From a virus: a stretch of DNA of 64,000 bases. This document shows, one piece after another, positions 14,656-64,000 of the stretch. Location: IMG/VR virus record IMGVR_UViG_3300047200_000500, positions 105,622 through 169,621 of that record; one strand, 5' to 3'. Numbering within the stretch: position 1 is the first letter of the stretch; every line of letters begins with the position of its first letter. The notes beneath the pieces are model-generated. The model saw only the letters and a program-made list of their open reading frames with translations. It did not search any database and was not told the DNA's origin. The position numbers were made by a program, and so were the translations under genes.

Positions 14656-15084
14656 ATGGCCGACCAACCCGCCAACACAGCAATTTCAGTCTTCCGTACA
14701 GTCCGTACGCGGACTGATGTTAACCGTAACGCCTCCATCAAGCAGATGGCTCAGCGTCTTGGTACCAGAGTGGTAATCGCCCCTGGTGAGGAAATCGACG
14801 CCTACTACGCACTGGCCGATACAGCCGCTGCTTCCGCTGCAGCTGGCGTCCCAGGTCCCAACCCCGGTTGGAGATATGGTATGCCAGTCGTTCTTGAGAC
14901 CCGCACACGCGCCACTGTGAATGATGTTTATGCAGGTGTGGCTTCTCTGGCCTTCCCTGTCAAGATCGTCGGTAACGGCAATGATCTCTTCATTGAGAAG
15001 GCCGCTGGCCATCTGACTGATGACCTGCACACTCAAGTTCGCGCTGTTGCTCCCCTGCCTCGGGGCCTCTTCCGCGCTATCTGA
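14656..15084 (+). CDS. GC-rich, probably highly expressed unknown protein (142 aa)
   Basis: Preceded by CAAGGAAC and followed by a very strong hairpin, so it behaves as its own expression unit. Codons are strongly C/G-ending, unlike the AT-rich genes on both sides but like the cold-shock gene. The protein is Ala-rich in the middle (DTAAASAAAGVPGPNPGW) with beta-rich flanks and no cysteine. Such codon bias with a dedicated terminator is typical of abundant virion proteins (tube, decoration or major structural). I cannot assign a family. Horizontal gain from a high-GC source is the alternative. Confidence 0.6.
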   Translation: MADQPANTAISVFRTVRTRTDVNRNASIKQMAQRLGTRVVIAPGEEIDAYYALADTAAASAAAGVPGPNPGWRYGMPVVLETRTRATVNDVYAGVASLAFPVKIVGNGNDLFIEKAAGHLTDDLHTQVRAVAPLPRGLFRAI

Positions 15085-16658: not shown

Positions 16659-16852
16659 CTTCTGGTGATTTTTTAACAGAGATGGCCGAAGAACCAGAAA
16701 TTAATAAAGCTGGATTAGATCCAGGTTTTGTAGCAATGTTGCAGCGTATGCACGAATATTCTCCAAAAGTACATGAGATGGTTAGGAAATTAAGGCGTGA
16801 AATTTATGTTTCTATAATGCAAGATAAAATTAATGGTAAAATATATATTTAA
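16655..16852 (+). CDS. Small unknown protein (65 aa)
   Basis: Coupled to the deaminase gene by an ATGA overlap and to the next gene by TAATG. The start MTSGDFLTEMAEE resembles that of the 23178 protein (MEATDFLTELFAK), suggesting a short shared N-terminal signal. The rest is a charged helix. No function assigned. Confidence 0.45.
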   Translation: MTSGDFLTEMAEEPEINKAGLDPGFVAMLQRMHEYSPKVHEMVRKLRREIYVSIMQDKINGKIYI

Positions 16853-18279
16853 TGACAATTCATTATACAACAGAAGAGTTTATACAAAAAGCCCAAAAAA
16901 TCCATGGTGATAAATATAATTATTCGTTGGTTGATTATAAAAAATACAATATCAAGATAAAAATAATTTGTCAAATTCATGGAGTGTTTGAACAAAATCC
17001 AGCTTGTCATATTCAAGGTCAAGGATGTCCGATTTGTCATGGATGTAAAAAAAGTAATAATGAACAATTTATACAAAAAGCAAATAAAGTTCATAATAAT
17101 AGGTATGATTATTCAAAAGTTAATTATGTAAGATCTAACTATAAAATTAAAATCATTTGTCCTGTTCATGGTGAATTTGAACAAATTGCTGCAAATCATT
17201 TACGTTATGGATGTCATTTGTGTTATAAATCATATAATTCTAATATAAAGGAATTTATTGATAAAATAGAAAAAATTCACGGTGATAAATATGATTATTC
17301 AAAAGCTGATTATAAAAATTCATTTACTAAAATTAAAATTATTTGTCCTGTTCATGGTGAATTTGAACAAACACCAAACAGACATCTATCTGGTCAGTGT
17401 GGTTGTCCTAAATGTCCGTCAGTGATTTCTTATGCCCAACAAGAACTTATTGATTTTATAAAGGAAGACAAGACTATAAATGATCGTGAAGTTATTAAAC
17501 CAAATGAATTAGATATTTTTATTCCAAGTAAAAATATTGCTATTGAATATCATGGTATTTATTGGCATAGTTATAATAAGTTGGAGTCTAATATAGAAAA
17601 ATATAAACACCACAACAAAGCATCAATTTGTTTTGATAAAGGTATTCAATTAATACAAATTTTTGAAAATGAATGGCTAAATAAGAAAAACATTGTAAAG
17701 TCTATCATTAATGCTAAATTAGGAATTAATAATAAAATATTTGCGCGTAAATGTGAGATTAAAGAATTATCATCCAAGGAATTTAATGAATTTTGTAATA
17801 AAAGCCATATTCAAGGAAAATTAAATTCAGTTATAAAGTTAGGATTGATACATTATGATAGATTAGTTTGTGTCATTGGTTTTAATAGGCATTCGAGGTA
17901 TGATTATGAATGTACTAGATTTTGTAATGAATTAAACGTTAATGTTGTTGGTGGCGCATCAAAGTTATTTAAATATTTTTTAAATAAATGGAAACCTAAT
18001 TCTATTTTATCGTTTGCTGATAGACGATATAGTAATGGTAGATTATATAAAACATTAGGATTTGAATTAATTGGGGTTACTGATCCAGGGTATTTTTATT
18101 TTAAAAATGGTGGTGATATGATATTGTACTCTCGTCAACAGTTTCAGAAACATAAACTTAAAAATAAATTAGATAATTTTAATTCTGATTTATCAGAGGC
18201 TCAAAATATGTTTAATAATAAATATAGAAGACTATGGGACGCAGGGCATTGGAAATTTGTATGGTCAAATATTAAATAG
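16852..18279 (+). CDS. Putative homing endonuclease: three DUF723-like zinc repeats plus EDxHD/Vsr-like nuclease
   Basis: Residues ~6-190 contain three imperfect copies of a ~60-aa unit with pattern 'F..KA..iHgdkYdYs.vdY....KikIiC..HGeFeQ...H....gCp.C', i.e. DUF723-like treble-clef zinc fingers that probably read DNA. Residues ~195-290 look like an EDxHD/Vsr-type nuclease fold (NELDIFIPSKNIAIEYHGIYWHS, then IQIFENEW). The C-terminal ~180 residues are a further conserved module (FARKCEIKELSSKEFNEFCNKSHIQG). Such proteins are known as free-standing mobile nucleases in large phages. It is AT-rich and inserted between coupled genes, fitting an invader. Confidence 0.72.
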   Translation: MTIHYTTEEFIQKAQKIHGDKYNYSLVDYKKYNIKIKIICQIHGVFEQNPACHIQGQGCPICHGCKKSNNEQFIQKANKVHNNRYDYSKVNYVRSNYKIKIICPVHGEFEQIAANHLRYGCHLCYKSYNSNIKEFIDKIEKIHGDKYDYSKADYKNSFTKIKIICPVHGEFEQTPNRHLSGQCGCPKCPSVISYAQQELIDFIKEDKTINDREVIKPNELDIFIPSKNIAIEYHGIYWHSYNKLESNIEKYKHHNKASICFDKGIQLIQIFENEWLNKKNIVKSIINAKLGINNKIFARKCEIKELSSKEFNEFCNKSHIQGKLNSVIKLGLIHYDRLVCVIGFNRHSRYDYECTRFCNELNVNVVGGASKLFKYFLNKWKPNSILSFADRRYSNGRLYKTLGFELIGVTDPGYFYFKNGGDMILYSRQQFQKHKLKNKLDNFNSDLSEAQNMFNNKYRRLWDAGHWKFVWSNIK

Positions 18280-18281
18280 GT

Positions 18282-19010
18282 ATGAAAATATCATCTCTAC
18301 ATGTTTTGTGTGAGGGTTACTCAAGAACATATAAGTTTGGATATGATAATTTTAACATTGATCCAAGACCAAATGTTGTAGCTTTAGGTAGGTGGGTAAA
18401 CCATAAAGGCACTAAGCTTCTTTGTGGAATCAATTTAAATTATCTTTCTGATGATCAAGTATTGGAGCTTCAGAAAAATCTTCAAACAATTCTTGGAGAT
18501 AGAAACCTTAGGCGCAGGGTTAGAAAATTACGTGGATTAATGCCTCAAATATTTGATCGCGCTTATAGAACTTACAATCAAGATCATGTTAAAATTGTTG
18601 CCCCAGGAACTCTTAAATTCTTTAAAGAGCCAAAACCTCAACCTATTAAAGAACCAGTCACTAAGGCTATTGAACCAATAAAAGCTAAAAAAGAATTAAA
18701 GAAGCCAGATGATGTCTCTAAAGATATAAATAAGATCGATAAAGATGAAAGAGGTATTGATTTTGATAAGGAAGAACCAGAACAAGATGATAAAGATATT
18801 CTAAGCAAAGAAAAAAAGGTTGCTTCAAAGGATATTAAACTTCAAAAAGGTGAACCTATTAAACTTGTTGATCCTAGGAAAAAAATTAAAGAACCTATTG
18901 AACCTGATAAAGATGCTAATTTTGGTAATTCAAAACCAGAAATTGTTGAGCCAGAAGATTTAGATTTTGAAGATGGTGAAGAGGATACAGATGAAGGAAT
19001 TCCTAAGTAA
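18282..19010 (+). CDS. Unknown protein with acidic disordered tail (virion-associated?)
   Basis: Residues ~1-110 are a compact basic domain (GRWVNHKGTKLLCGINLNYLSDDQVLELQ ... RNLRRRVRKLRGLMPQIFDRAYRTY). Residues ~115-242 are low complexity, rich in Lys/Glu/Asp/Pro and ending very acidic. The basic domain with an acidic tail suggests a nucleic-acid-binding or head-associated protein. The sequence TAAATAGG sits just before the ATG and again before the next gene's GTG. No family recognised. Confidence 0.5.
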   Translation: MKISSLHVLCEGYSRTYKFGYDNFNIDPRPNVVALGRWVNHKGTKLLCGINLNYLSDDQVLELQKNLQTILGDRNLRRRVRKLRGLMPQIFDRAYRTYNQDHVKIVAPGTLKFFKEPKPQPIKEPVTKAIEPIKAKKELKKPDDVSKDINKIDKDERGIDFDKEEPEQDDKDILSKEKKVASKDIKLQKGEPIKLVDPRKKIKEPIEPDKDANFGNSKPEIVEPEDLDFEDGEEDTDEGIPK

Positions 19011-19017
19011 ATAGGAT

Positions 19018-19707
19018 GTGGTTTACGAAAAAGGCAAGATTCCAGATTGTAGTAATGTAGAAGAGTTAAAGTCTTTTTTTAAAGATCATGAAGATTACAC
19101 CACTCTTGAAATAGCTTTAAGATATAAAATCGCTCCAGGAAGTTTAAGATGTTGGAGAGTTAAAGCTGGCCTTAAATCAAAAACAGCCCATTCTGAATTT
19201 TTGAAGTCACATAAACTGCAAAAAAAACTTATCATTGAACATGTACATGATCCATTAATATGGGATAATAAAGAATGGTTTGAAAATGCTTATTCTAAAT
19301 ATGGAATAATAACAATTTCTAAAATAATAGGTAAAACTATTAGGACTGTTCAAAAAAGATTAGCAAAGTATGAAATTAAGACAAAACTCTGGAAAGATTC
19401 TATAAAAAGTAAAAATCCATATAATAATGAAGCCTGGATAGTTGAACAATATTTTACTAATAAAATTGGTGTTGCTAAAATGGCTAAAATAGCTGGTGTT
19501 AGCATATATACCATGTATGATTGGTTAGTAAGTAAAGGAATTTACCCAAGATCAATAAGCAGGGCTGGTGCTATATATAGATGGCGTATGTTAAAAATTA
19601 AAAAGAAACTAAGATTAGAAAAGTACAATAAAGTATATGGAACAAGCTTTCAGAGTTTTAAAGAAGTTGCTGATGCAAGATCCAAGGATAAAGAAGGTAA
19701 AGTCTGA
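19018..19707 (+). CDS. Helix-turn-helix DNA-binding protein
   Basis: GTG start at 19018 (TAAATAGG lies 2 bases upstream); an overlapping ATG at 19016 is in another frame and soon stops. The 229-aa protein contains repeated HTH-like units: LEIALRYKIAPGSLRCWRVKAGL, TISKIIGKTIRTVQKRLAKYEI and VAKMAKIAGVSIYTMYDWLVSKGI. Several consecutive HTHs with a basic C-terminus suit a small terminase subunit or a DNA-site reader related to homing nucleases; sequence alone does not decide. The next gene starts inside its 3' end. Confidence 0.55.
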   Translation: MVYEKGKIPDCSNVEELKSFFKDHEDYTTLEIALRYKIAPGSLRCWRVKAGLKSKTAHSEFLKSHKLQKKLIIEHVHDPLIWDNKEWFENAYSKYGIITISKIIGKTIRTVQKRLAKYEIKTKLWKDSIKSKNPYNNEAWIVEQYFTNKIGVAKMAKIAGVSIYTMYDWLVSKGIYPRSISRAGAIYRWRMLKIKKKLRLEKYNKVYGTSFQSFKEVADARSKDKEGKV

Positions 19708-21191: not shown

Positions 21192-22112
21192 ATGATTGAT
21201 TGGAACATAGTAAAAAAATTACATGTTGAATACAATAATAAACAAATAGCTGAAAAATTAAATATTTCAATTGGATCAGTACAAAGAATAATGAGAAATA
21301 TTAATGAAGGTAAAGTAAGAAATAAGATTAATAATCCTGAACCAATATTTAAAAGATTGCATTTATCGGAAAATGAATATATTAAATTATTAAATAAATT
21401 ATATTGGTCAGATAATCTCTCTCAAAGGAAAATAGCCGCTGTTTTTAATGTTCACCAAAGGACCATTGAGATTAGTTTTAAAAAATATAATATTAGAACT
21501 AGATCTTTGTCAGAAGCATCAAAATGGGAACAAAAGTCTTGTAATTTAACACCCGATCAAATAGAAATTATTGATGGGTTAATGCTTGGTGATGGCCATT
21601 TAGATAAATCAAATGTTTCAGCTAGAATTCAATATGTCTGTAAGTTTAAAAAAATCTTAATTGATATTACTAAAGAATTCAGTCAATTACATTTTAGTGA
21701 GCCATGGGGTACTAAAATTTCTAATGAATCATGGAGAACTAAAAATAAATGCTGGTTTATAAAATCATCATTTTATAATGATTTGTTAGTTCATAGAAAT
21801 AGATGGTATAAAGATATTAAAATAATACCAAATGATGTCATGTTAACTGCAAAATCATTTTATTGGTGGTTCATTGGTGATGGATATATTAAAAATAAAT
21901 GTGTAGAGCTTTGTACTGATAATTTTAAACATGTCCATCTTGAAAAATTGCAATTAAAATTAAATAATTTAGGCTATAAATCGTCAATTACTACTAGAAA
22001 AAGATTAAAGTTTAATCGTGATTCTAGTAGTAGATTTATTAATAATATTGAAAATAATAATAATATTGCACAAGAATATCAATATAAATTTAACAAATTT
22101 CACGAGGTGTAA
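21192..22112 (+). CDS. LAGLIDADG homing endonuclease with N-terminal HTH
   Basis: Two LAGLIDADG-type motifs are visible: IDGLMLGDGHLD (about residue 128) and FYWWFIGDGYIKN (about residue 220); each supplies an acidic metal ligand. The N-terminal ~110 residues contain two HTH-like units (NKQIAEKLNISIGSVQRIM and SQRKIAAVFNVHQRTIEIS) that probably help find the target. Length 306 aa fits a free-standing monomeric enzyme. It sits between a small gene and gmd with no surrounding intron visible, so it is likely an intergenic mobile element. Confidence 0.82.
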   Translation: MIDWNIVKKLHVEYNNKQIAEKLNISIGSVQRIMRNINEGKVRNKINNPEPIFKRLHLSENEYIKLLNKLYWSDNLSQRKIAAVFNVHQRTIEISFKKYNIRTRSLSEASKWEQKSCNLTPDQIEIIDGLMLGDGHLDKSNVSARIQYVCKFKKILIDITKEFSQLHFSEPWGTKISNESWRTKNKCWFIKSSFYNDLLVHRNRWYKDIKIIPNDVMLTAKSFYWWFIGDGYIKNKCVELCTDNFKHVHLEKLQLKLNNLGYKSSITTRKRLKFNRDSSSRFINNIENNNNIAQEYQYKFNKFHEV

Positions 22113-52864: not shown

Positions 52865-53797
52865 ATGCCAACAGGCATAAAAATAAATTGGCCAATATAT
52901 GATCAATTATTAATTGATAACGTTTCAAAATATAATATTTTAGAATTTACTAGAAAATTCTTACCACATATTTCTCCAACAGCTGTTGCTAAAAGGATTA
53001 AAAAATTAAATTTAAAACCGTTAAAATTTGAATTTAATGATGAAATAAGAGAAAGAGTAAAAAATGGAGTAACTAGTAATTATTTTGATGAAAAAACTGA
53101 TAAATTGTTACTTGATAATATCAAGTCAATGTCAATTAAAGAATTATCAAGATTGACTGGATACGATAAAACAGCAATATGGCGTAGACTTAAAGAAATT
53201 AATTATATTCATGATAAAAATGATGTTTATAATAAACACAGTATCGCAGTTAAATTAGCATTATCAAATCCAGAAGTTAAAAGAAAATTATCAGTTGCTT
53301 CTAAGGGTAAAGTATTAAGCGAAGAAACTAAATTAAAAATAAGTCAATATATGACTGGTAGTGGTAATCATCAATATGGTAAACCAAGAACTAAAGAAGA
53401 AAATGAAAAAGTATCTTTAAAAATACATGAATTAATGTCACTTGGTAAAATTAATAATAAATGTTATATTAATGGTTGGCATCAATCTAGTAAATCTGGT
53501 AATGTCCACTATAGATCATCTTATGAATTGGCTTATTATAAAAAACTTGATGCCGACGATAATGTAATTAATTATAAGGTTGAGCCACTATTAATTAAAT
53601 ATTTTTACAAAAATTGTCTAAAATATTATAAACCAGATCTATTAGTTAATAGAAACAGTGGTCCAACACTGGAAGAAATTAAACCATTAATATTTGTTCA
53701 TTGTAAAAGAAATCAAGCAAAATTTAAATATGCCAGTGATTATGCGACAAGGTGCAACCTAGAATTTAAAGTCATAACTGAAAAAGACATATTTTAA
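52865..53797 (+). CDS. Putative homing endonuclease: HTH, NUMOD3, PD-(D/E)XK-like nuclease
   Basis: The N-terminal ~120 residues hold two HTH-like units (SPTAVAKRIKKLNL and SIKELSRLTGYDKTAIWRRLKE). Residues ~130-195 match NUMOD3-type DNA-binding repeats (KGKVLSEETKLKISQYMTG, GKPRTKEENEKVS). The C-terminal ~100 residues resemble a PD-(D/E)XK nuclease (YRSSYELAYYKKLD, then YYKPDLLV...LEEIKP). The combination with NUMOD3 marks a free-standing mobile nuclease. It lies between two tail genes with no intron seen. Confidence 0.7.
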   Translation: MPTGIKINWPIYDQLLIDNVSKYNILEFTRKFLPHISPTAVAKRIKKLNLKPLKFEFNDEIRERVKNGVTSNYFDEKTDKLLLDNIKSMSIKELSRLTGYDKTAIWRRLKEINYIHDKNDVYNKHSIAVKLALSNPEVKRKLSVASKGKVLSEETKLKISQYMTGSGNHQYGKPRTKEENEKVSLKIHELMSLGKINNKCYINGWHQSSKSGNVHYRSSYELAYYKKLDADDNVINYKVEPLLIKYFYKNCLKYYKPDLLVNRNSGPTLEEIKPLIFVHCKRNQAKFKYASDYATRCNLEFKVITEKDIF

Positions 53798-53816: not shown

Positions 53817-55697
53817 ATGAGCAAAACGTTATTTAAATTTTATAGTGATGAATATAGGAGGTTAATACCTGTTGACCCTGATGATTATTCACCTACATCA
53901 TCATTGACTTTCTCATGTTGGTTTAAGGCCAAGAATAGTAATCGTCACCAACACATTTGTGGTCATAAAAATCTTGGATTTTCTTTTAGTTTAACACCTA
54001 TTAATAGTTATTCATATATAACCGCTAAAGTTGGAATAAGTACAATTACTTATTCTAAACCAATACAAAACAATGTATGGTATTTTGTGGCGTTAGTATG
54101 GGGAGATGATGACAAAAGTTTTAAATTTTACTTGTTTGAAGATATAGCCCACCGACGTGGCGGCACTATTAATACTGGCCCAACACGATATAATAATGAT
54201 GTTACTCAATTGATCGGTGAAATTGATGTAAACAATGTTGTTTATGGGAGTGAAATAGATAAGCATATATGGATTTATAAAAATTATGTTGGAGTATCTT
54301 CATTCCAGATGACGGTTGCTGATATTGGATTGTGGAATGAAAAACTAAGTCATTCAGAAATAAATGAACTTGTTATATGCAATAGTATTGATCCAGGGTT
54401 GACATTATTATTTGATAAAGTTAATGATGCTGGTACTATTTATGGAAGTAAACTACCAAAATCAATACTTCAATTAATAAGATTAGCCAAGGATGATGAT
54501 CCTTGCATTATAATTGGTAACTCTTCTCAATCTTCTGAAAGTAGTTCATTTTCTAGTAAATCTTCTGACTCATCACCATTTGAATCATCTAGTTCAAGTA
54601 GTAAATCATCGTCATCGTCATCAAGCTCATCATCTGATTCGTCATCAAGCTCATCATCCAATTCGTCATCAAGCTCATCATCAAGCTCATCATCAAGCTC
54701 ATCATCAAGCTCATCGCCATTTGAATCATCCAGTTCAAGTAGTAAATCATCAGATTCGTCATCAGATTCATCATCTAGTTCATCATCAGATACACAAAGA
54801 GGATTATTTGCAGGTGGAACAAATGGTAGTAGTGTTCTAAATACAATAAGTTACATAACATTTTCATCAACTAGTAATGCTACTAATTTTGGTGATCTAA
54901 CTGTTGCAAGGTATTATTTAGGAGCTTGTTCTAGTAATACTAGAGGGATATTTTGTGGTGGTGTCGTTTTTGCATATGGCAATATTATTGATTATGTCAC
55001 TATTGCTACAACTGGTGATGCTATAGATTTTGGTGATTTGAGTACGACCAGGAGTAGGTTTGGATCATGTTCCAATTCTACAAGAGGACTATTTGGTGGT
55101 GGGTATGATTCCACTTATTCAAATGTCATTGATTATATTACTATTGCTACAACTGGTAATACTTTAGATTTTGGTGATCTAACTTATAAAAGAGACAGAT
55201 CAGCGGCTTGCTCTAGTTCAACAAGAGGAGTGTTTATTAGTGGATATGGTTTCAGTAGTATCCATCCAATAAATCCTGGAGTTAGTGAAACTATTGATTA
55301 TGTCGCAATAGCATCAATAGGAGATGCTACTAATTTTGGCAATTTGGTGACTTTAAGAATTGATGCAGCTGCGTGTTCAAATTCAATAAGAGGAATAATT
55401 GGTGGTGGAAATGAAGGATCGCCAATATACGCTAGCAATGTTATAGAATATATTACAATAGCTTCAACTGGTGATACGACAGATTTTGGAGACTTAACGG
55501 TTGAAAGAGATAGACTTGTTGCTTGTTCAAGTGCACTTAAAGGGGTTTTTGCTGGTGGTCAGAGCAATGTCAATGTTGTTAATGTTATTGATTATGTTAC
55601 TATTGCTTCAACTGGCAATGCCACTGATTTTGGTGATTTAATGACTATAACGTATATTTTTGCAGCGTGTTCAAATTCTCATGGTGGTGTAATATAA
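53817..55697 (+). CDS. Tail adhesin: LamG-like head, poly-Ser linker, Kelch-like repeats
   Basis: 626 aa. Residues ~20-210 look LamG-like (SLTFSCWFKAKNSN, VWYFVALVWGDDD, ADIGLWNEKLSHSEINEL). Residues ~236-324 are almost pure Ser with repeated PFESSSSSSKSS units. Residues ~326-626 comprise about six ~45-aa repeats with the pattern 'RG.f.GG......iidYitIaTtGna.dFGdLt..r....aCs', likely a beta-propeller. It should be a surface-exposed receptor binder. The frame of the Ser tract could vary by slippage. Its stop overlaps the convergent minus-strand gene. Confidence 0.7.
   Translation: MSKTLFKFYSDEYRRLIPVDPDDYSPTSSLTFSCWFKAKNSNRHQHICGHKNLGFSFSLTPINSYSYITAKVGISTITYSKPIQNNVWYFVALVWGDDDKSFKFYLFEDIAHRRGGTINTGPTRYNNDVTQLIGEIDVNNVVYGSEIDKHIWIYKNYVGVSSFQMTVADIGLWNEKLSHSEINELVICNSIDPGLTLLFDKVNDAGTIYGSKLPKSILQLIRLAKDDDPCIIIGNSSQSSESSSFSSKSSDSSPFESSSSSSKSSSSSSSSSSDSSSSSSSNSSSSSSSSSSSSSSSSSSPFESSSSSSKSSDSSSDSSSSSSSDTQRGLFAGGTNGSSVLNTISYITFSSTSNATNFGDLTVARYYLGACSSNTRGIFCGGVVFAYGNIIDYVTIATTGDAIDFGDLSTTRSRFGSCSNSTRGLFGGGYDSTYSNVIDYITIATTGNTLDFGDLTYKRDRSAACSSSTRGVFISGYGFSSIHPINPGVSETIDYVAIASIGDATNFGNLVTLRIDAAACSNSIRGIIGGGNEGSPIYASNVIEYITIASTGDTTDFGDLTVERDRLVACSSALKGVFAGGQSNVNVVNVIDYVTIASTGNATDFGDLMTITYIFAACSNSHGGVI
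54520..54790 (+). repeat. Ser-coding low-complexity repeat (TCATCAAGC-type)
   Basis: A ~270-bp tract of TCATCAAGC/TCATCATC-type units coding for serine, with a duplicated block of about 30 residues (PFESSSSSSKSS) at both ends. The same unit recurs in the 60275 gene. Confidence 0.9.
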
Positions 55698-58162: not shown

Positions 58163-59101
58163 TTACTTATAATATTTTAATTTGTAATTCATTCCAGGGA
58201 TATTAATAGCATAATCATGTATATAGTTTAATATATTATCTATTAATTCTTTATTAATGACTATATAATATTTATTGCATGAAGAATGCAATTGTAATCT
58301 TGGTTTTTTTGTATTAAATTTATCAGATAACCATTCTGATATTAATTCGGTATGTTCAGTTGAAAAACCTTGAGTTGATAATGATCCACCACATTTCCCA
58401 AAATAACCATCATCAAAAAACCAAATTGCTACACTAATGTCATTTAATTTATTCAAAAAATTAAGATTTGGAGATTTAATATTATTAATATATAATTCTC
58501 TATGAATATTATTAATGTATTCATTTACCATTGTGGTAAAATTCATGCACTCTTTTCCATACATTCTTTCATCGTACTCATAAATTTTTGGTTTTGTATT
58601 TATTATAGTTTTTAATTTTCCATATTTCCATTTTAAATATTTATATTGTTTTGGACCATGAACAAACCTCATTCTACAATTATTTGATGATGTTCTTGAA
58701 ATTGTTGCATCTCCAAGGATTGCTCCATTTAAAATTTGTTTTTGTTCTTCTGTTAATTCAATATTTAATTTTCTATTATTAAATTTTAAATTATTCTTAT
58801 GCATCAATGAAATTACTGTACTATATGTTAAATTTAACATATTAGAAATTTCTGTTGGTGATTTTTTATCATTAAACAATGAAATTATTTCTTTTATGTT
58901 ATAGTCATACTTTAATGCGCCGCATTTTATAGAACAATACTTTGCAGTCCTGTAACCCAAAAATTCTTCATTACATCTTTTACATATTTTTATTCTTCTT
59001 CTTCCTTTATTTTTACAATTTGTGCAATATTTAGTAAATGGTAGTGAACTGTCAAATGTTATATCACATACTTTGCATTTAATTTTGAAATTTGTGTTCA
59101 T
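58163..59101 (-). CDS. LAGLIDADG homing endonuclease with zinc fingers and HTH
   Basis: Two LAGLIDADG-type motifs: LNGAILGDATIS (~residue 125) and SVAIWFFDDGYFGK (~225). The N-terminus has two zinc-finger pairs (CKVC...CTNC and CKRC...CSIKC) and an HTH-like unit (SPTEISNMLNLTYSTVISLM). It is the second LAGLIDADG protein in the window but shares little with 21192-22112 beyond the core, so they are independent invaders. It sits divergently to the RarA-like gene over 31 bases. Confidence 0.82.
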   Translation of the reverse strand: MNTNFKIKCKVCDITFDSSLPFTKYCTNCKNKGRRRIKICKRCNEEFLGYRTAKYCSIKCGALKYDYNIKEIISLFNDKKSPTEISNMLNLTYSTVISLMHKNNLKFNNRKLNIELTEEQKQILNGAILGDATISRTSSNNCRMRFVHGPKQYKYLKWKYGKLKTIINTKPKIYEYDERMYGKECMNFTTMVNEYINNIHRELYINNIKSPNLNFLNKLNDISVAIWFFDDGYFGKCGGSLSTQGFSTEHTELISEWLSDKFNTKKPRLQLHSSCNKYYIVINKELIDNILNYIHDYAINIPGMNYKLKYYK

Positions 59102-59132: not shown

Positions 59133-60245
59133 ATGACATTGGCTCATATATTAAGACCAAACACTTTATCTGAAATAATCGGACAAAAACATCTACTTAA
59201 TGATAATAGACCAATTAGCGCAATGGCTAAATCTAAAAAATTGGTTAGTTTTATATTATGGGGGCCAACAGGATGTTCAAAAACTACAATAGTTAGAGCG
59301 TTGGCTAATGATGCAGGATATGAATTTAAAGAATTAGACGCAACAGAAGCAAAAGTTGCTGATATTAGAAAAATATTAGAAATTGCAGAAGCAAGATTAA
59401 AATTAGGAACAAAATATTTATTACTGGTACAAGAATTTCACAGGTTCAGCAAAAACGTACAGGACGTTTTGCTTCCAGCAGTAGAAGAAGGAATAATAGT
59501 GTTAGCTGGAACAACTACAGAAAAACCTGCTTTTTCCGTTAATCCTGCTATTTTGAGCAGAGTTCTTGTCTTTGAAACTAAATTAATGGAACGTAATGAA
59601 ATGATCCAATTAATGTTGAAGGTTTTTAAATATTATAAGAATAAAGGTAGAACAATCACGATAGATCAGCAAGCAGTGTTGGATCTGGTTTCAAAATGTA
59701 GTGGAGATCCAAGAAAATTAATGAATGTTTTAGAAACTATAATTGAAACTATGATTGATGGTAATGGATCAATAGAGAAAGAAATGATCGATATGGTAAT
59801 ACCTTGCAAACATTTGTATCTTGATCCTAATGGTAATGAACATTATAATTATGCCTCTGCATGGCAAAATTCAGTGCAAAATTCTGATGTTGACCAAGCA
59901 CTATATTTTTTAGGTAAATGGTTGTTAAGTGGTGAGGATGCTCGTTTTATAGCGCGTAGAATTCTAATTTCTGCTTCAGAAGATGCTGCACATAGTCAAA
60001 TGGCCCAAATTTGTGCTTTAAATGCCCACATAGCTGCTCGTGATATTGGTTACCCAGAATGTAAGATACCAATGGCACTAGCTACAATAGAAATAACCAG
60101 AACTAAGCGTGACAAATTCGCCAATGACGCAATAAATAAAGTTATTCATGATATAGAGAATGGTGTTGATATAATGGTCCCAATAGAATTACGTGCCGGA
60201 AATCACGATGGATATGTAAAATTAATTAATAAAAAATACATATAA
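59133..60245 (+). CDS. RarA/MgsA-like AAA protein with altered Walker motifs
   Basis: Whole-length resemblance to RarA (WRIP1/MgsA) proteins, which act at stalled replication forks: N-terminal RPNTLSEIIGQKHLL, IRKILEIAEAR, FHRFSKNVQDVLLPAVEEG, and the C-terminal SGEDARFIARRILISASEDAA and IGYPECKIPMALATIE segments. Walker A is GPTGCSKT, with Ser49 where glycine is expected, and Walker B is LLLVQEFHR, with Gln100 in place of the catalytic-site Asp. The Arg finger R143 is kept. ATP binding or hydrolysis is therefore doubtful. A clamp-loader-like role is less likely given the RarA-type tail. Confidence 0.78.
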   Translation: MTLAHILRPNTLSEIIGQKHLLNDNRPISAMAKSKKLVSFILWGPTGCSKTTIVRALANDAGYEFKELDATEAKVADIRKILEIAEARLKLGTKYLLLVQEFHRFSKNVQDVLLPAVEEGIIVLAGTTTEKPAFSVNPAILSRVLVFETKLMERNEMIQLMLKVFKYYKNKGRTITIDQQAVLDLVSKCSGDPRKLMNVLETIIETMIDGNGSIEKEMIDMVIPCKHLYLDPNGNEHYNYASAWQNSVQNSDVDQALYFLGKWLLSGEDARFIARRILISASEDAAHSQMAQICALNAHIAARDIGYPECKIPMALATIEITRTKRDKFANDAINKVIHDIENGVDIMVPIELRAGNHDGYVKLINKKYI

Positions 60246-60274: not shown

Positions 60275-63200
60275 ATGTGTAATCTAGTTCAAATTAGCAC
60301 TCCGTATTTTAGAGCGCTTACTTTAAAAGTAATAGGCACAGATGTTGTTGTATCAGATTATCTGATGGTTAACATTGACATATTTTGTGGAATATTGGAT
60401 TTGAAAAAACGAGTAATAGCAATAGCTGATGATGGAGATATTCCAGATAGGTTAAAAAATGAAAATAACTTAAGAAAAGCAGTACATGATAATGGAATTC
60501 CTTTTGTAAAACATTATCTTGTATTATTCGAAATAACTGTTGGATTTATTCTTGATCCCGATGCTATTTGTAATAAATTAAGAATCATTTTTGATGATAC
60601 TAGTTCTTATTCTAGTAGTATATCAAGTTTATCAAGTGAATCTATCTCTTCATTAAGCTCATTAAGTTTATCTAGTTTATCTTCTAGTAGTTTATCAAGT
60701 GAATCTATCTCTTCATTAAGCTCATTAAGTTCATCAAGCTCATTAAGCTCATTAAGCTCATCGTCTAGTAGTTTATCAAGTGAATCTATTTCTTCATTAA
60801 GTTCATCAAGCCTGTCAAGCGAATCTGTCTCTTCATCAAGTTCATTAAGTTCGTCAAGCCTGTCAAGTGAATCTATCTCTTCATCTAGTATATCAAGCGA
60901 ATCTATTTCAAGTGAATCTATTTCTTCATTAAGTTCATTAAGTTCGTCAAGTCTGTCAAGCCTGTCAAGCTCATCAAGCCTGTCAAGCGAATCTAGTTCA
61001 TCTGTTTTATCTTCTGCGATAATAGTTATTAATACAGTTAATGTTAGTCCAGGATCTACAGCATTTAATCAATTTAAATTACCATTATCTCCATCTGGTA
61101 TATATGATTTCATAGTATATTGGGGTGATGGAAATTTTGATATCATAACAGCTTATGATCAAGCTGAAATAACACACACTTATTTTCTCAATTCTTCATC
61201 TTCTTCATCACCATATAAATCGTCTAATTCATCATCTAATTCTAGCCCTAGTTCTGACTCATCAGCAAGTTTGTCTTCAATTTCAAATTTACTTTTTAGT
61301 CTATCGTCACTTTCTAGTGGATCGTTAAGCTCATCAAGCTCATCAAGCTCGTTAAGCTCATCAAGCTCATCAAGCTCATCAAGCTCATCAATAATATTGT
61401 CAAAGTCGTCGTTATCATCATTAAGTCTGTCGTCAAATTCATCTTCAAGCTCATCAACGATATTGTCAAAATCATCTGGTTCATCATTAAGTTTATCATC
61501 TGGTTCATCATTAAGTCTATCATCAAGTTCATCGTCAAATTCATCGTTAAGTTCATCGTTAAGTTCATTGAGTTCTTCAGATCATGTATATACAATTAGA
61601 ATTGAAGGAATTTTGGATGGATGGATTTTTAATGGTACAGGTGATTGTAAAAAATTGCTAAATATTACTCAATATGGTACATCATTACGATTTGGAAATT
61701 TAGGATATGAATTTCAGGGTTGTACCAGTTTAACAGCAGTTACAGCAACAGATACTCCATATATCGACAATAGTTCAATATTAACATCTTTATTTTCTGG
61801 ATGTTCAAATTTAACATCTGTAGACTCAATTTTATCTTGGGATCTATATAAAATATCATCGTTTAGTTATGTGTTTCAAAATGCATTATCCTTTAATCAA
61901 GATATTGGCGCTTTAAATACTAGTTCCTTTACTTATATTAAAGGATTATTGGCTGGGGCTGCATCATTTAATCAGGATATTTCACAATGGGACGTTAGTA
62001 ATGTTACAGATATGTCCGAAGTGTTTTTTAATGCTACCGCGTATAATAATAACAATGACAATGTAATAAACCCAAATACTGGACGTTCCGGACTTAATGG
62101 ATGGGATGTAAGCAATGTAACTGATCTGTCACAAATGTTTTATGGGGCATCCTCATTTAATCGCCCAATTGGTAATTGGTTCGATAGTGGTTTCTCAGCT
62201 ATTAGTATGGATAACATGTTCACCAATACTTTGGCTTTCAACCAGAATATGGATAGCTGGGCTGGTAAAGCGGTCGGGCCAACACTGGTAGGAATATTTG
62301 ATAATGCCACTGTATTCAACAACGGCCTTGCTGCTGGTGTAGCTGGTCTGATGCTGTGGGATCCAAAGACTGTTATTTACGACCAGATGTTCCGATTGGC
62401 AGCAAAGTTTAATGGCGAGGTAAGCCAGTGGGATATGTCAAACGCCACACGTATTTCGGAAATGTTCCGCCTGTGCGGTGTGTGGAACAACGGCGCTAAC
62501 ACCACTATCAACCCGATAACGGGCCGTACAGGCATCGACGGTTGGGATGTGGGTAATGTGACTTCTTTCTCTAGTGCATTCGCCCAGAACCCCGTATTCG
62601 ACAGGCCCCTCACCAATTGGAATGTTAGTAATGGTGTTAATTTCAGTCATATGTTCAACGCATGTGCTGCGTTCAATCAGCCATTGATCTCCTGGGATAT
62701 GAGGAAAGCGTATTACACCAGTGGCATGTTTTGGCTCTGCAATGTCTTTAACCAGCCGATTGGTGCATGGGTGTTCAACGACCTACATGAGTGCGCCAGC
62801 ATGTTCCAGAGTGCTCTCGCATTCAATCAGGACATCGGCTCATGGGACATGAGCAAGGTCAATCTTGCTAGCGGAATGTTTAATGGTGCAACCGCATTCA
62901 ACAACGGTGGAAGTAACAGCATCAAAAACTGGCAGATGGGCCTTGTCACCAATTTGTTTCTCATGTTTGGGTCTGCTACTGCATTCAATCAGCCAATCGG
63001 TGCATGGGACCTCAGCGCAGCAGTCAGTATGGACCAGATGTTCACCAACGCATCGGCGTTCAATCAAAACCTCGACGGTTGGGCCGGGAAGGCGGTCGGG
63101 CCGACGTTGACGACCGTGCAGGCAATGTTCGACGCTGCCTCAAACTTCAACAACGGCCTCGCCTCGGGTGTGGCGGGGTTGATGCTCTGGGATCCGAAGA

Positions 63201-64000
63201 CCGTCAAGTATGGGCAGATGTTCCGGTCCTGCGCGAAGTTCAATGGTGAGTTGAGTCAGTGGGACATGTCGAACGCGACCAGTATTTCCGAAATGTTGCG
63301 GTTATGCACTGTGTTCAACAACGGCGCGAATACAGCCATCAACCCCTATACGGGCCGCACTGGAATCGACGGCTGGGATGTGAGCAAGGTGACAACTTTC
63401 TCCAGCGCCTTCGGTCAGGCGGTGGCCTTCAATCGCCCTATTGGTAACTGGAATGTCGGGAATGGAGTCAACTTCAGCTTCATGTTCCTGCTGGATGCTC
63501 TGTTCAATCAGCCCCTCAACGCCTGGGACATGCGGAAGGCTTACTACACGAATGGGATGTTCCAGGGCTGCACGGCATTCAACCAGCCGCTCGGGGGGTG
63601 GGTATTCAACGATCTTCACGAGTGCTCTACGATGTTCACAAACTGCAATGTGTTCGATCAGGACATCGGCTCATGGGATATGAGCAAGGTGACAGTTTGC
63701 GGTGCCATGTTCTGGAATGCCCTCGCCTTCAACAATGGAGGATCTGATAGCATCAAGAATTGGAACATGGGTGCGGCGAAGGACATGAATAGTATCTTCC
63801 GCAATGCCCGTGCCTTCAACCAACCCATCGGCCTCTGGGATGTGTCGAAGAATACCAACGGCTATTCGATGTTTGCTGATGCGTGGTCTTTCAACCAGCC
63901 GCTAGACACCTGGAATGTGGGCAAGGTGACAACCATGTTGTCCATGTTTCAGCAGGCGAGCGTGTTCAACCAAGATTTGTCTAAGTGGGACACTCGATCG
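60275..64000 (+). CDS. Giant Ser-rich, PKD-like, BspA-repeat surface/fibre protein (3' end outside window)
   Basis: The ATG at 60275 (AAATATAGG upstream) begins a frame open to the right edge, at least 1242 codons. Order: N-terminal domain (1-108), Ser-rich linker (~109-245), a PKD-like segment (~246-307, YDFIVYWGDGNFD), a second Ser-rich linker (~306-436), then many BspA/DUF285 repeats ('FNQ.ig.WDvSnVt.M..MF..a..'). Such repeats occur on bacterial surface proteins that bind host or matrix proteins. In the repeat part the DNA shifts from AT-rich to GC-rich, suggesting capture from elsewhere. A receptor-binding long fibre is the likely role. Confidence 0.8.
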   Translation, partial: MCNLVQISTPYFRALTLKVIGTDVVVSDYLMVNIDIFCGILDLKKRVIAIADDGDIPDRLKNENNLRKAVHDNGIPFVKHYLVLFEITVGFILDPDAICNKLRIIFDDTSSYSSSISSLSSESISSLSSLSLSSLSSSSLSSESISSLSSLSSSSSLSSLSSSSSSLSSESISSLSSSSLSSESVSSSSSLSSSSLSSESISSSSISSESISSESISSLSSLSSSSLSSLSSSSSLSSESSSSVLSSAIIVINTVNVSPGSTAFNQFKLPLSPSGIYDFIVYWGDGNFDIITAYDQAEITHTYFLNSSSSSSPYKSSNSSSNSSPSSDSSASLSSISNLLFSLSSLSSGSLSSSSSSSSLSSSSSSSSSSSSIILSKSSLSSLSLSSNSSSSSSTILSKSSGSSLSLSSGSSLSLSSSSSSNSSLSSSLSSLSSSDHVYTIRIEGILDGWIFNGTGDCKKLLNITQYGTSLRFGNLGYEFQGCTSLTAVTATDTPYIDNSSILTSLFSGCSNLTSVDSILSWDLYKISSFSYVFQNALSFNQDIGALNTSSFTYIKGLLAGAASFNQDISQWDVSNVTDMSEVFFNATAYNNNNDNVINPNTGRSGLNGWDVSNVTDLSQMFYGASSFNRPIGNWFDSGFSAISMDNMFTNTLAFNQNMDSWAGKAVGPTLVGIFDNATVFNNGLAAGVAGLMLWDPKTVIYDQMFRLAAKFNGEVSQWDMSNATRISEMFRLCGVWNNGANTTINPITGRTGIDGWDVGNVTSFSSAFAQNPVFDRPLTNWNVSNGVNFSHMFNACAAFNQPLISWDMRKAYYTSGMFWLCNVFNQPIGAWVFNDLHECASMFQSALAFNQDIGSWDMSKVNLASGMFNGATAFNNGGSNSIKNWQMGLVTNLFLMFGSATAFNQPIGAWDLSAAVSMDQMFTNASAFNQNLDGWAGKAVGPTLTTVQAMFDAASNFNNGLASGVAGLMLWDPKTVKYGQMFRSCAKFNGELSQWDMSNATSISEMLRLCTVFNNGANTAINPYTGRTGIDGWDVSKVTTFSSAFGQAVAFNRPIGNWNVGNGVNFSFMFLLDALFNQPLNAWDMRKAYYTNGMFQGCTAFNQPLGGWVFNDLHECSTMFTNCNVFDQDIGSWDMSKVTVCGAMFWNALAFNNGGSDSIKNWNMGAAKDMNSIFRNARAFNQPIGLWDVSKNTNGYSMFADAWSFNQPLDTWNVGKVTTMLSMFQQASVFNQDLSKWDTRS
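60600..61010 (+). repeat. Ser-coding low-complexity repeat 1
   Basis: Tract of TCATTAAGC/TCATCAAGC/TCTAGT-type units with larger blocks (LSSESISS) repeated several times; codes mainly Ser, Leu and Glu. A candidate for length variation by slippage or recombination. Confidence 0.9.
61190..61580 (+). repeat. Ser-coding low-complexity repeat 2
   Basis: TCATCAAGC units and TCGTTAAG variants, with repeated ILSKSS blocks. Codes Ser/Leu linker between the PKD-like and BspA parts. Confidence 0.9.
62258..64000 (+). repeat. ~822-bp super-repeat within the BspA region
   Basis: A block beginning WAGKAVGPTL at 62258 recurs at 63080 (822 bp, 274 aa later); internal landmarks such as INPxTGRTGIDGWDV are 831 bp apart because of a 3-codon insertion. 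The second copy is GC-richer than the first. Confidence 0.75.

Follow-up and report, generated by a model that had tools for sequence, protein, structure and literature searches.

A single open frame at the right end of the window passes from AT-rich into GC-rich DNA without interruption, and the question it raises is how one viral gene came to have two compositions. The window, i.e., the whole stretch of 64,000 nucleotides analyzed here, spans positions 105622–169621 of the IMG/VR virus record IMGVR_UViG_3300047200_000500, and its right end is the end of that 169,621-bp record. The frame (60275–64000, + strand) has 1242 codons with zero stops, staying open across the composition change as a preliminary description had claimed, and it runs off the contig end, which cuts the gene at 1242 aa. 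The G+C counts given in that description are exact on recounting (16 of 60 positions in 61621–61680 and 39 of 60 in 63061–63120). The record as a whole has a GC content of 0.323, and its 152 ORFs have a mean GC3s (synonymous GC3, with Met and Trp codons removed) of 0.19; no tRNA was found in it.

Architecture and setting of the open frame

The encoded protein displays, in order, an N-terminal domain, a first serine-rich tract, a PKD-like domain split by a second serine-rich tract, and an array of DUF285 repeats, an organization suggesting a surface protein of the phage that is assembled from modules and probably serves as an adhesin of the tail or virion. From this domain make-up, together with tail-like genes in the same region of the contig, we infer that it is located on the virion and binds the host. 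The N-terminal domain (~107 aa; 60275–60595, +) is without known relatives, sequence searches having returned none, and neither it nor serine-rich tract 1 (140 aa, 70% Ser; 60596–61015, +) is found in the viral PKD–DUF285 relatives discussed below. The first half of the PKD-like domain (...WGDG...THTY; 61016–61183, +) and the second half (VYTIRIEG...; 61583–61721, +, the right-hand limit being approximate) flank serine-rich tract 2 (~130 aa; 61184–61582, +), which lies in the HTY–YTI loop. In the AlphaFold2 model the two halves fold together with a pLDDT of ~97 each, the W-G-D-G strand, HTY, and the YTIxI strand coming together in one β-sandwich, while tract 2 is predicted to be disordered (pLDDT 30–43). 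All 38 aligned relatives (38/38) pass from HTY to the YTIxI-type strand within a few residues and have no tract 2, with the W, G, D, and HTY residues being invariant across the alignment. Pfam gives no PKD match; we use the designation PKD-like on the strength of the motif and of the structure model.

Both serine-rich tracts contain tandem units of 9–81 nt with TCA, TCT, AGT, and AGC codons, and thus likely originated by repeat expansion. Another such tract (119 aa, 55% Ser; contig 21584–21940, minus strand) is found in a 666-aa ORF, and the phage seems prone to long serine-rich tracts. The split PKD-like domain sits in the AT-rich part of the frame and is independent of the composition junction.

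The array itself belongs to the DUF285 family (PF03382), with a Pfam score of 525.8 bits against a cut-off of 25 over 10 stretches; DUF285 matches occur at 8 places in the contig, every one of them within 60275–64000. With a PKD-like domain directly before the DUF285 array and the linker motif FNNTGDRxKILxIxxWG, the protein falls in a viral PKD–DUF285 adhesin family, the same order and linker being seen in an uncultured huge phage (LR756500.1) and in the IMG/VR loci L110, L113, L092, and L078. In those proteins the PKD-like domain is contiguous, in contrast to its interruption by the ~130-aa serine tract here. The LR756500.1 version (L020, 7623–8777), from a 27% GC locus of a 462-kb uncultured phage, is a complete 384-aa PKD–DUF285 protein with an intact C-terminal cap (...GGDAEASRTYLIGTKNWTINDAGG) and is useful as a compact reference for the family; the present contig ends before the position of the cap in the frame.

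The same ~25-aa FNxxxxxWDxSxVTxMxxMF repeats are present in many copies in phage DUF285/BspA-type LRR proteins, such as those of Vibrio phage pir03, Aeromonas phages D3 and LAh10, and Kosakonia phage Kc263, which are encoded in large-phage genomes, some of them adjoining virion or baseplate genes (PMC7765460). These differ from the frame studied here in that they track the GC3 of their genomes, show ≤40% identity, and are without its INPxTGRxG insertion (see below). Bacterial BspA-like surface LRR proteins likely share the same LRR fold class, but there is no significant fold or sequence match to them, and the similarity to DUF285 loci of bacteria does not exceed that to viral loci. With an AlphaFold2 model of one 277-aa repeat copy (copy 1 below; pLDDT 78, pTM 0.82), Foldseek recovers LRR matches only, none significant, the top one being Treponema pallidum TpLRR (6mlx, E 0.076), and a sequence search of the PDB found nothing.

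Upstream lies a clamp-loader/RarA-like gene (59133–60245, +), which serves as a synteny anchor. A search for syntenic relatives gave a single match, the contig L011, in which the clamp-loader/RarA-like gene is present and the DUF285 gene absent, and hence the locus is variable; no capsid match was found in the part of L011 compared. Also absent from L011 is a second serine-linked surface protein (window 53817–55697), in which we recognize by eye a LamG-like start, a serine tract (54579–54716), and kelch-like GDLT/ACSSxTRG repeats. The absence of both genes is the pattern expected of variable surface genes. ORFs that by eye resemble homing or HNH-type endonucleases are found at window 16852–18279, 21192–22112, 52865–53797, and 58163–59101; the last two separate genes that stand closer together in L011.

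A composition break inside the repeat array

The GC content is low through the N-terminal domain (0.29), serine tract 1 (0.33), the first half of the PKD-like domain (0.29), serine tract 2 (0.34), and 61583–62212 (0.32), which holds the second PKD half and the first DUF285 repeats; it then rises to 0.49 in 62213–63028 and 0.54 in 63029–64000. The preliminary description had contrasted an AT-rich phage part with BspA repeats that grow GC-richer to the right: the rightward rise that it saw stands, whereas over its first ~630 nt the PKD-tail and repeat DNA matches the phage in AT-richness. The break thus falls inside the DUF285 array, away from any phage/BspA junction. At synonymous sites the profile resolves into GC3s levels of 0.15, then 0.52 from 62213 (support interval about 62204–62381), then 0.72 from 63032 (62984–63086).

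Whether this rise is stepped or graded depends on the model chosen, with three levels (BIC 892) improving on one step (902), and a smooth sigmoid (888) fitting as well as the three levels. The rise in GC3s (0.08, 0.21, 0.40, 0.55, 0.84, and 0.69) is nearly monotonic. The second step has a permutation p of 0.0005 for codon order, but a few DUF285 genes besides this one have steps as large. The main step greatly exceeds chance expectation: its log-likelihood gain is 142 as against 10.9 for the runner-up when 129 ORFs of the contig are scanned in the same way, and 141 as against 20 for the next-best gene among 91 DUF285 genes, including this one, from phages, IMG/VR, and bacteria. Moreover, the difference between the GC3s of DUF285 genes and that of their flanks is −0.02 ± 0.064 with a maximum of +0.13 (n = 87), as compared to +0.40 here. 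As the other genes match the GC3s of their genomes, the repeat family is not GC-rich by nature; an apparent intrinsic excess of ~+0.1 seen at first look in GC3 disappeared upon removal of Met and Trp codons and enlargement of the sample.

The two sides of the break are nonetheless kin. AT-rich repeats (61722–62212, +; GC3s ~0.15) are followed by two copies of a 277-aa super-repeat, copy 1 (831 nt; 62192–63022, +) and copy 2 (63023–63853, +; ~70% amino acid identity to copy 1), and by further DUF285 repeats (63854–64000, +), where the contig end cuts the array short of the family's C-terminal cap. An eleven-residue insertion private to this protein occurs in both copies (INPITGRTGID, 62507–62539, +; INPYTGRTGID, 63338–63370, +) and in the AT-rich part in what we call copy 0 (INPNTGRSGLN, 62066–62098, +): INPNTGRSGLNGWDVSNVT of the last AT-rich repeat aligns in register with INPITGRTGIDGWDVGNVT and INPYTGRTGIDGWDVSKVT of the GC-rich copies. 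None of 127 other DUF285 proteins has the INPxTGRxG insertion, and its exact DNA pattern was not found in IMG/VR. The copy-0 stretch is matched best by copy 2 (55% over 71 aa). Sharing of the insertion by all three copies indicates that the repeats on either side of the break, AT-rich and GC-rich, are paralogs within a single adhesin lineage. This does not support the earlier proposal of BspA DNA captured beside a phage part, as the AT-rich repeats already belong to the viral PKD–DUF285 family.

The preliminary description had also suggested that the GC-rich repeats came from a higher-GC genome. Their codons do look foreign toward the right, and import is the best reading, but a search of IMG/VR, GTDB genomes, and phage records returned neither a donor nor a close relative, the best outside identity being ~40%. 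Copies 1 and 2 have in common a motif, FNNGLAxGVAGxLxW, whose other occurrences are mostly in DUF285 genes of viruses; this suggests that the source was a phage and not a bacterium.

Competing explanations for the GC-rich repeats

The explanation that we favor, with about even confidence, is that repeat modules were recently exchanged with a homologous adhesin of a higher-GC phage. Under this proposal, homologous repeats of a higher-GC adhesin of the same lineage would have recently replaced or extended the C-terminal portion of the array, starting at ~62213 and possibly in two events, at 62213 and ~63030. The unmatched step, the private insertion on both sides, the maintained register, the intermediate copy 1, and the foreign-like copy 2 all count in its favor. 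On the other side stand the want of a donor and the setting of the break, which lies in a repetitive gene of an IMG/VR record, 1.8 kb short of where the contig stops, a place where misassembly is plausible; further, ~90 other DUF285 genes are without such a step, so the mechanism would be one that is rarely caught.

A serious though less probable alternative is an assembly chimera, in which the final ~1.8 kb (alternatively, ~1 kb) derive from the homologous adhesin of another, higher-GC phage and were joined via the repeats. That the contig ends in the adhesin gene, that the step is unparalleled among the DUF285 genes and contig ORFs surveyed, and that the codon usage of copy 2 is foreign are all compatible with such a join, which, being homologous, would likewise preserve frame and register; the private insertion, too, fits a chimera of two related phages, and a frame-split capsid gene on the same contig (see below) may signal local consensus errors. 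Against it, the partner would have to carry an insertion seen nowhere else, and the profile is stepped or graded through an intermediate copy 1 with no single sharp switch, although normal within-gene variation could mimic this. Further, when 61580–64000 is compared with the contig, the sole exact repeat of at least 16 nt is one of 22 nt shared by copies 1 and 2 (62826–62847, +, and 63657–63678); none ties the region of the 62213 break to other parts of the contig, and the DNA of its two sides is so dissimilar that a long common k-mer is unlikely there.

An extension of the favored module exchange, in which one import after another makes the array grow, or renews it, at the C-terminal end, with 0.15, 0.52, and 0.72 as a dated record of the GC of its partners, appears rather unlikely; if true, it would provide a composition clock for adhesin renewal.

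Translational selection, or GC-biased gene conversion, might instead have raised the GC3 of the repeats as in the capsid gene, but we regard this as improbable. Structural genes of phages favor host codons (PMC2266997), and the raised GC3s of the capsid gene (~0.7) is consistent with this; two other genes have GC3s of 0.48–0.53. When codon models are compared, a mixture based on the capsid gene is preferred by the capsid gene itself (trivially), by the gene just upstream of it, and by the gene at window 14656. Copy 1 is accommodated equally well by this mixture and by a GC shift. Copy 2, in contrast, is better described by the GC-shifted model by 36 log units (log-likelihood −304.8 vs −340.8): it uses GGG, CGG, GCG, and ACG, codons that are sparse in the capsid gene, whereas the latter keeps GCT, GGT, and CGT. 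Hence, codon usage unlike both the genome and its highly expressed genes, the mark of import, is found in copy 2, with copy 1 being a tie. Also against selection, the first 640 codons of the same gene are without copy 2-type usage, and in DUF285 genes from other genomes GC3 is not raised.

The capsid gene merits note in its own right. Its product is a major capsid protein of the T4 type (PHROG annotation, major head protein), which matches that of a huge phage with E 2e-31, and the gene lies at contig 98009–99419 as two overlapping ORFs in different frames (98009–98836 and 98829–99419; L037:18009–18836 and 18829–19419), which match adjacent halves of one profile (19–218, then 219–405). The split may come from an error in the consensus or from a genuine frameshift, or the capsid may be encoded by two genes. 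In this AT-rich phage, the capsid gene and the gene upstream (contig 97182–99419), along with window 14656–15081, have GC3s of 0.48–0.72 against the genome mean of 0.19, with codons typical of translational selection.

Least probable of all, and very unlikely, is one old capture of GC-rich repeats whose left copies ameliorated further than the right ones, as the preliminary description had proposed: the near-monotonic rise of GC3s and the one-sided synonymous differences between the copies (55 vs 19) would suit it, but 74% of the fourfold sites shared by copies 1 and 2 differ, i.e., they are saturated (d > 1.5, with ~1.5 substitutions per site as a lower bound), and all copies in one genome face the same mutation bias, with position in the gene giving no reason for unequal rates. 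Under that bias, a start at 0.9 GC is expected to fall to ~0.45 after 0.75 substitutions per site (a simple F81-type model with an equilibrium of 0.17, the contrast being large enough that its details should not matter), and copy 2 still has a GC4 of 0.77; this rules out simple amelioration in place for copy 2. Copy 2 thus entered the genome well after its split from copy 1, or is foreign to it.

Proposed module exchange and renewal of the adhesin

We return to module exchange as the favored explanation. Since the repeats keep frame and register, recombination within the array would leave the protein functional while changing its binding surface. The serine-rich linkers might give reach and flexibility, with the PKD-like domain as a spacer, and the putative DUF285 solenoid would be the likely binding face that is renewed by recombination within the array. 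The binding role and surface location, like phage-to-phage recombination, are what we infer.

There is precedent for such exchange. Host-recognition modules have been documented to be exchanged between distant phages, as in Alteromonas phages A5, V22, and P24, whose receptor-binding parts are swapped in a comparable manner (PMC10579305); however, those are whole multi-gene modules, whereas here the break lies within the repeat array of one gene and is without a donor. Regions of unusual GC3 have likewise been proposed as possible traces of phage–phage transfer (PMC2266997).

If the junction is instead a chimera, the locus would be a warning that repeat adhesins at contig ends can mimic exchange. 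The AT-rich half carries a message of its own: to judge from the split PKD-like domain, a folded domain of a phage protein may tolerate a lengthy, disordered run of serines in one of its loops. Should the junction prove real, it would offer a seldom-seen view of modules being exchanged inside one phage adhesin gene, the genomes involved differing greatly in GC and the repeats preserving frame and register, and this gene would be the sole one among ~90 comparable genes to have been caught before amelioration.
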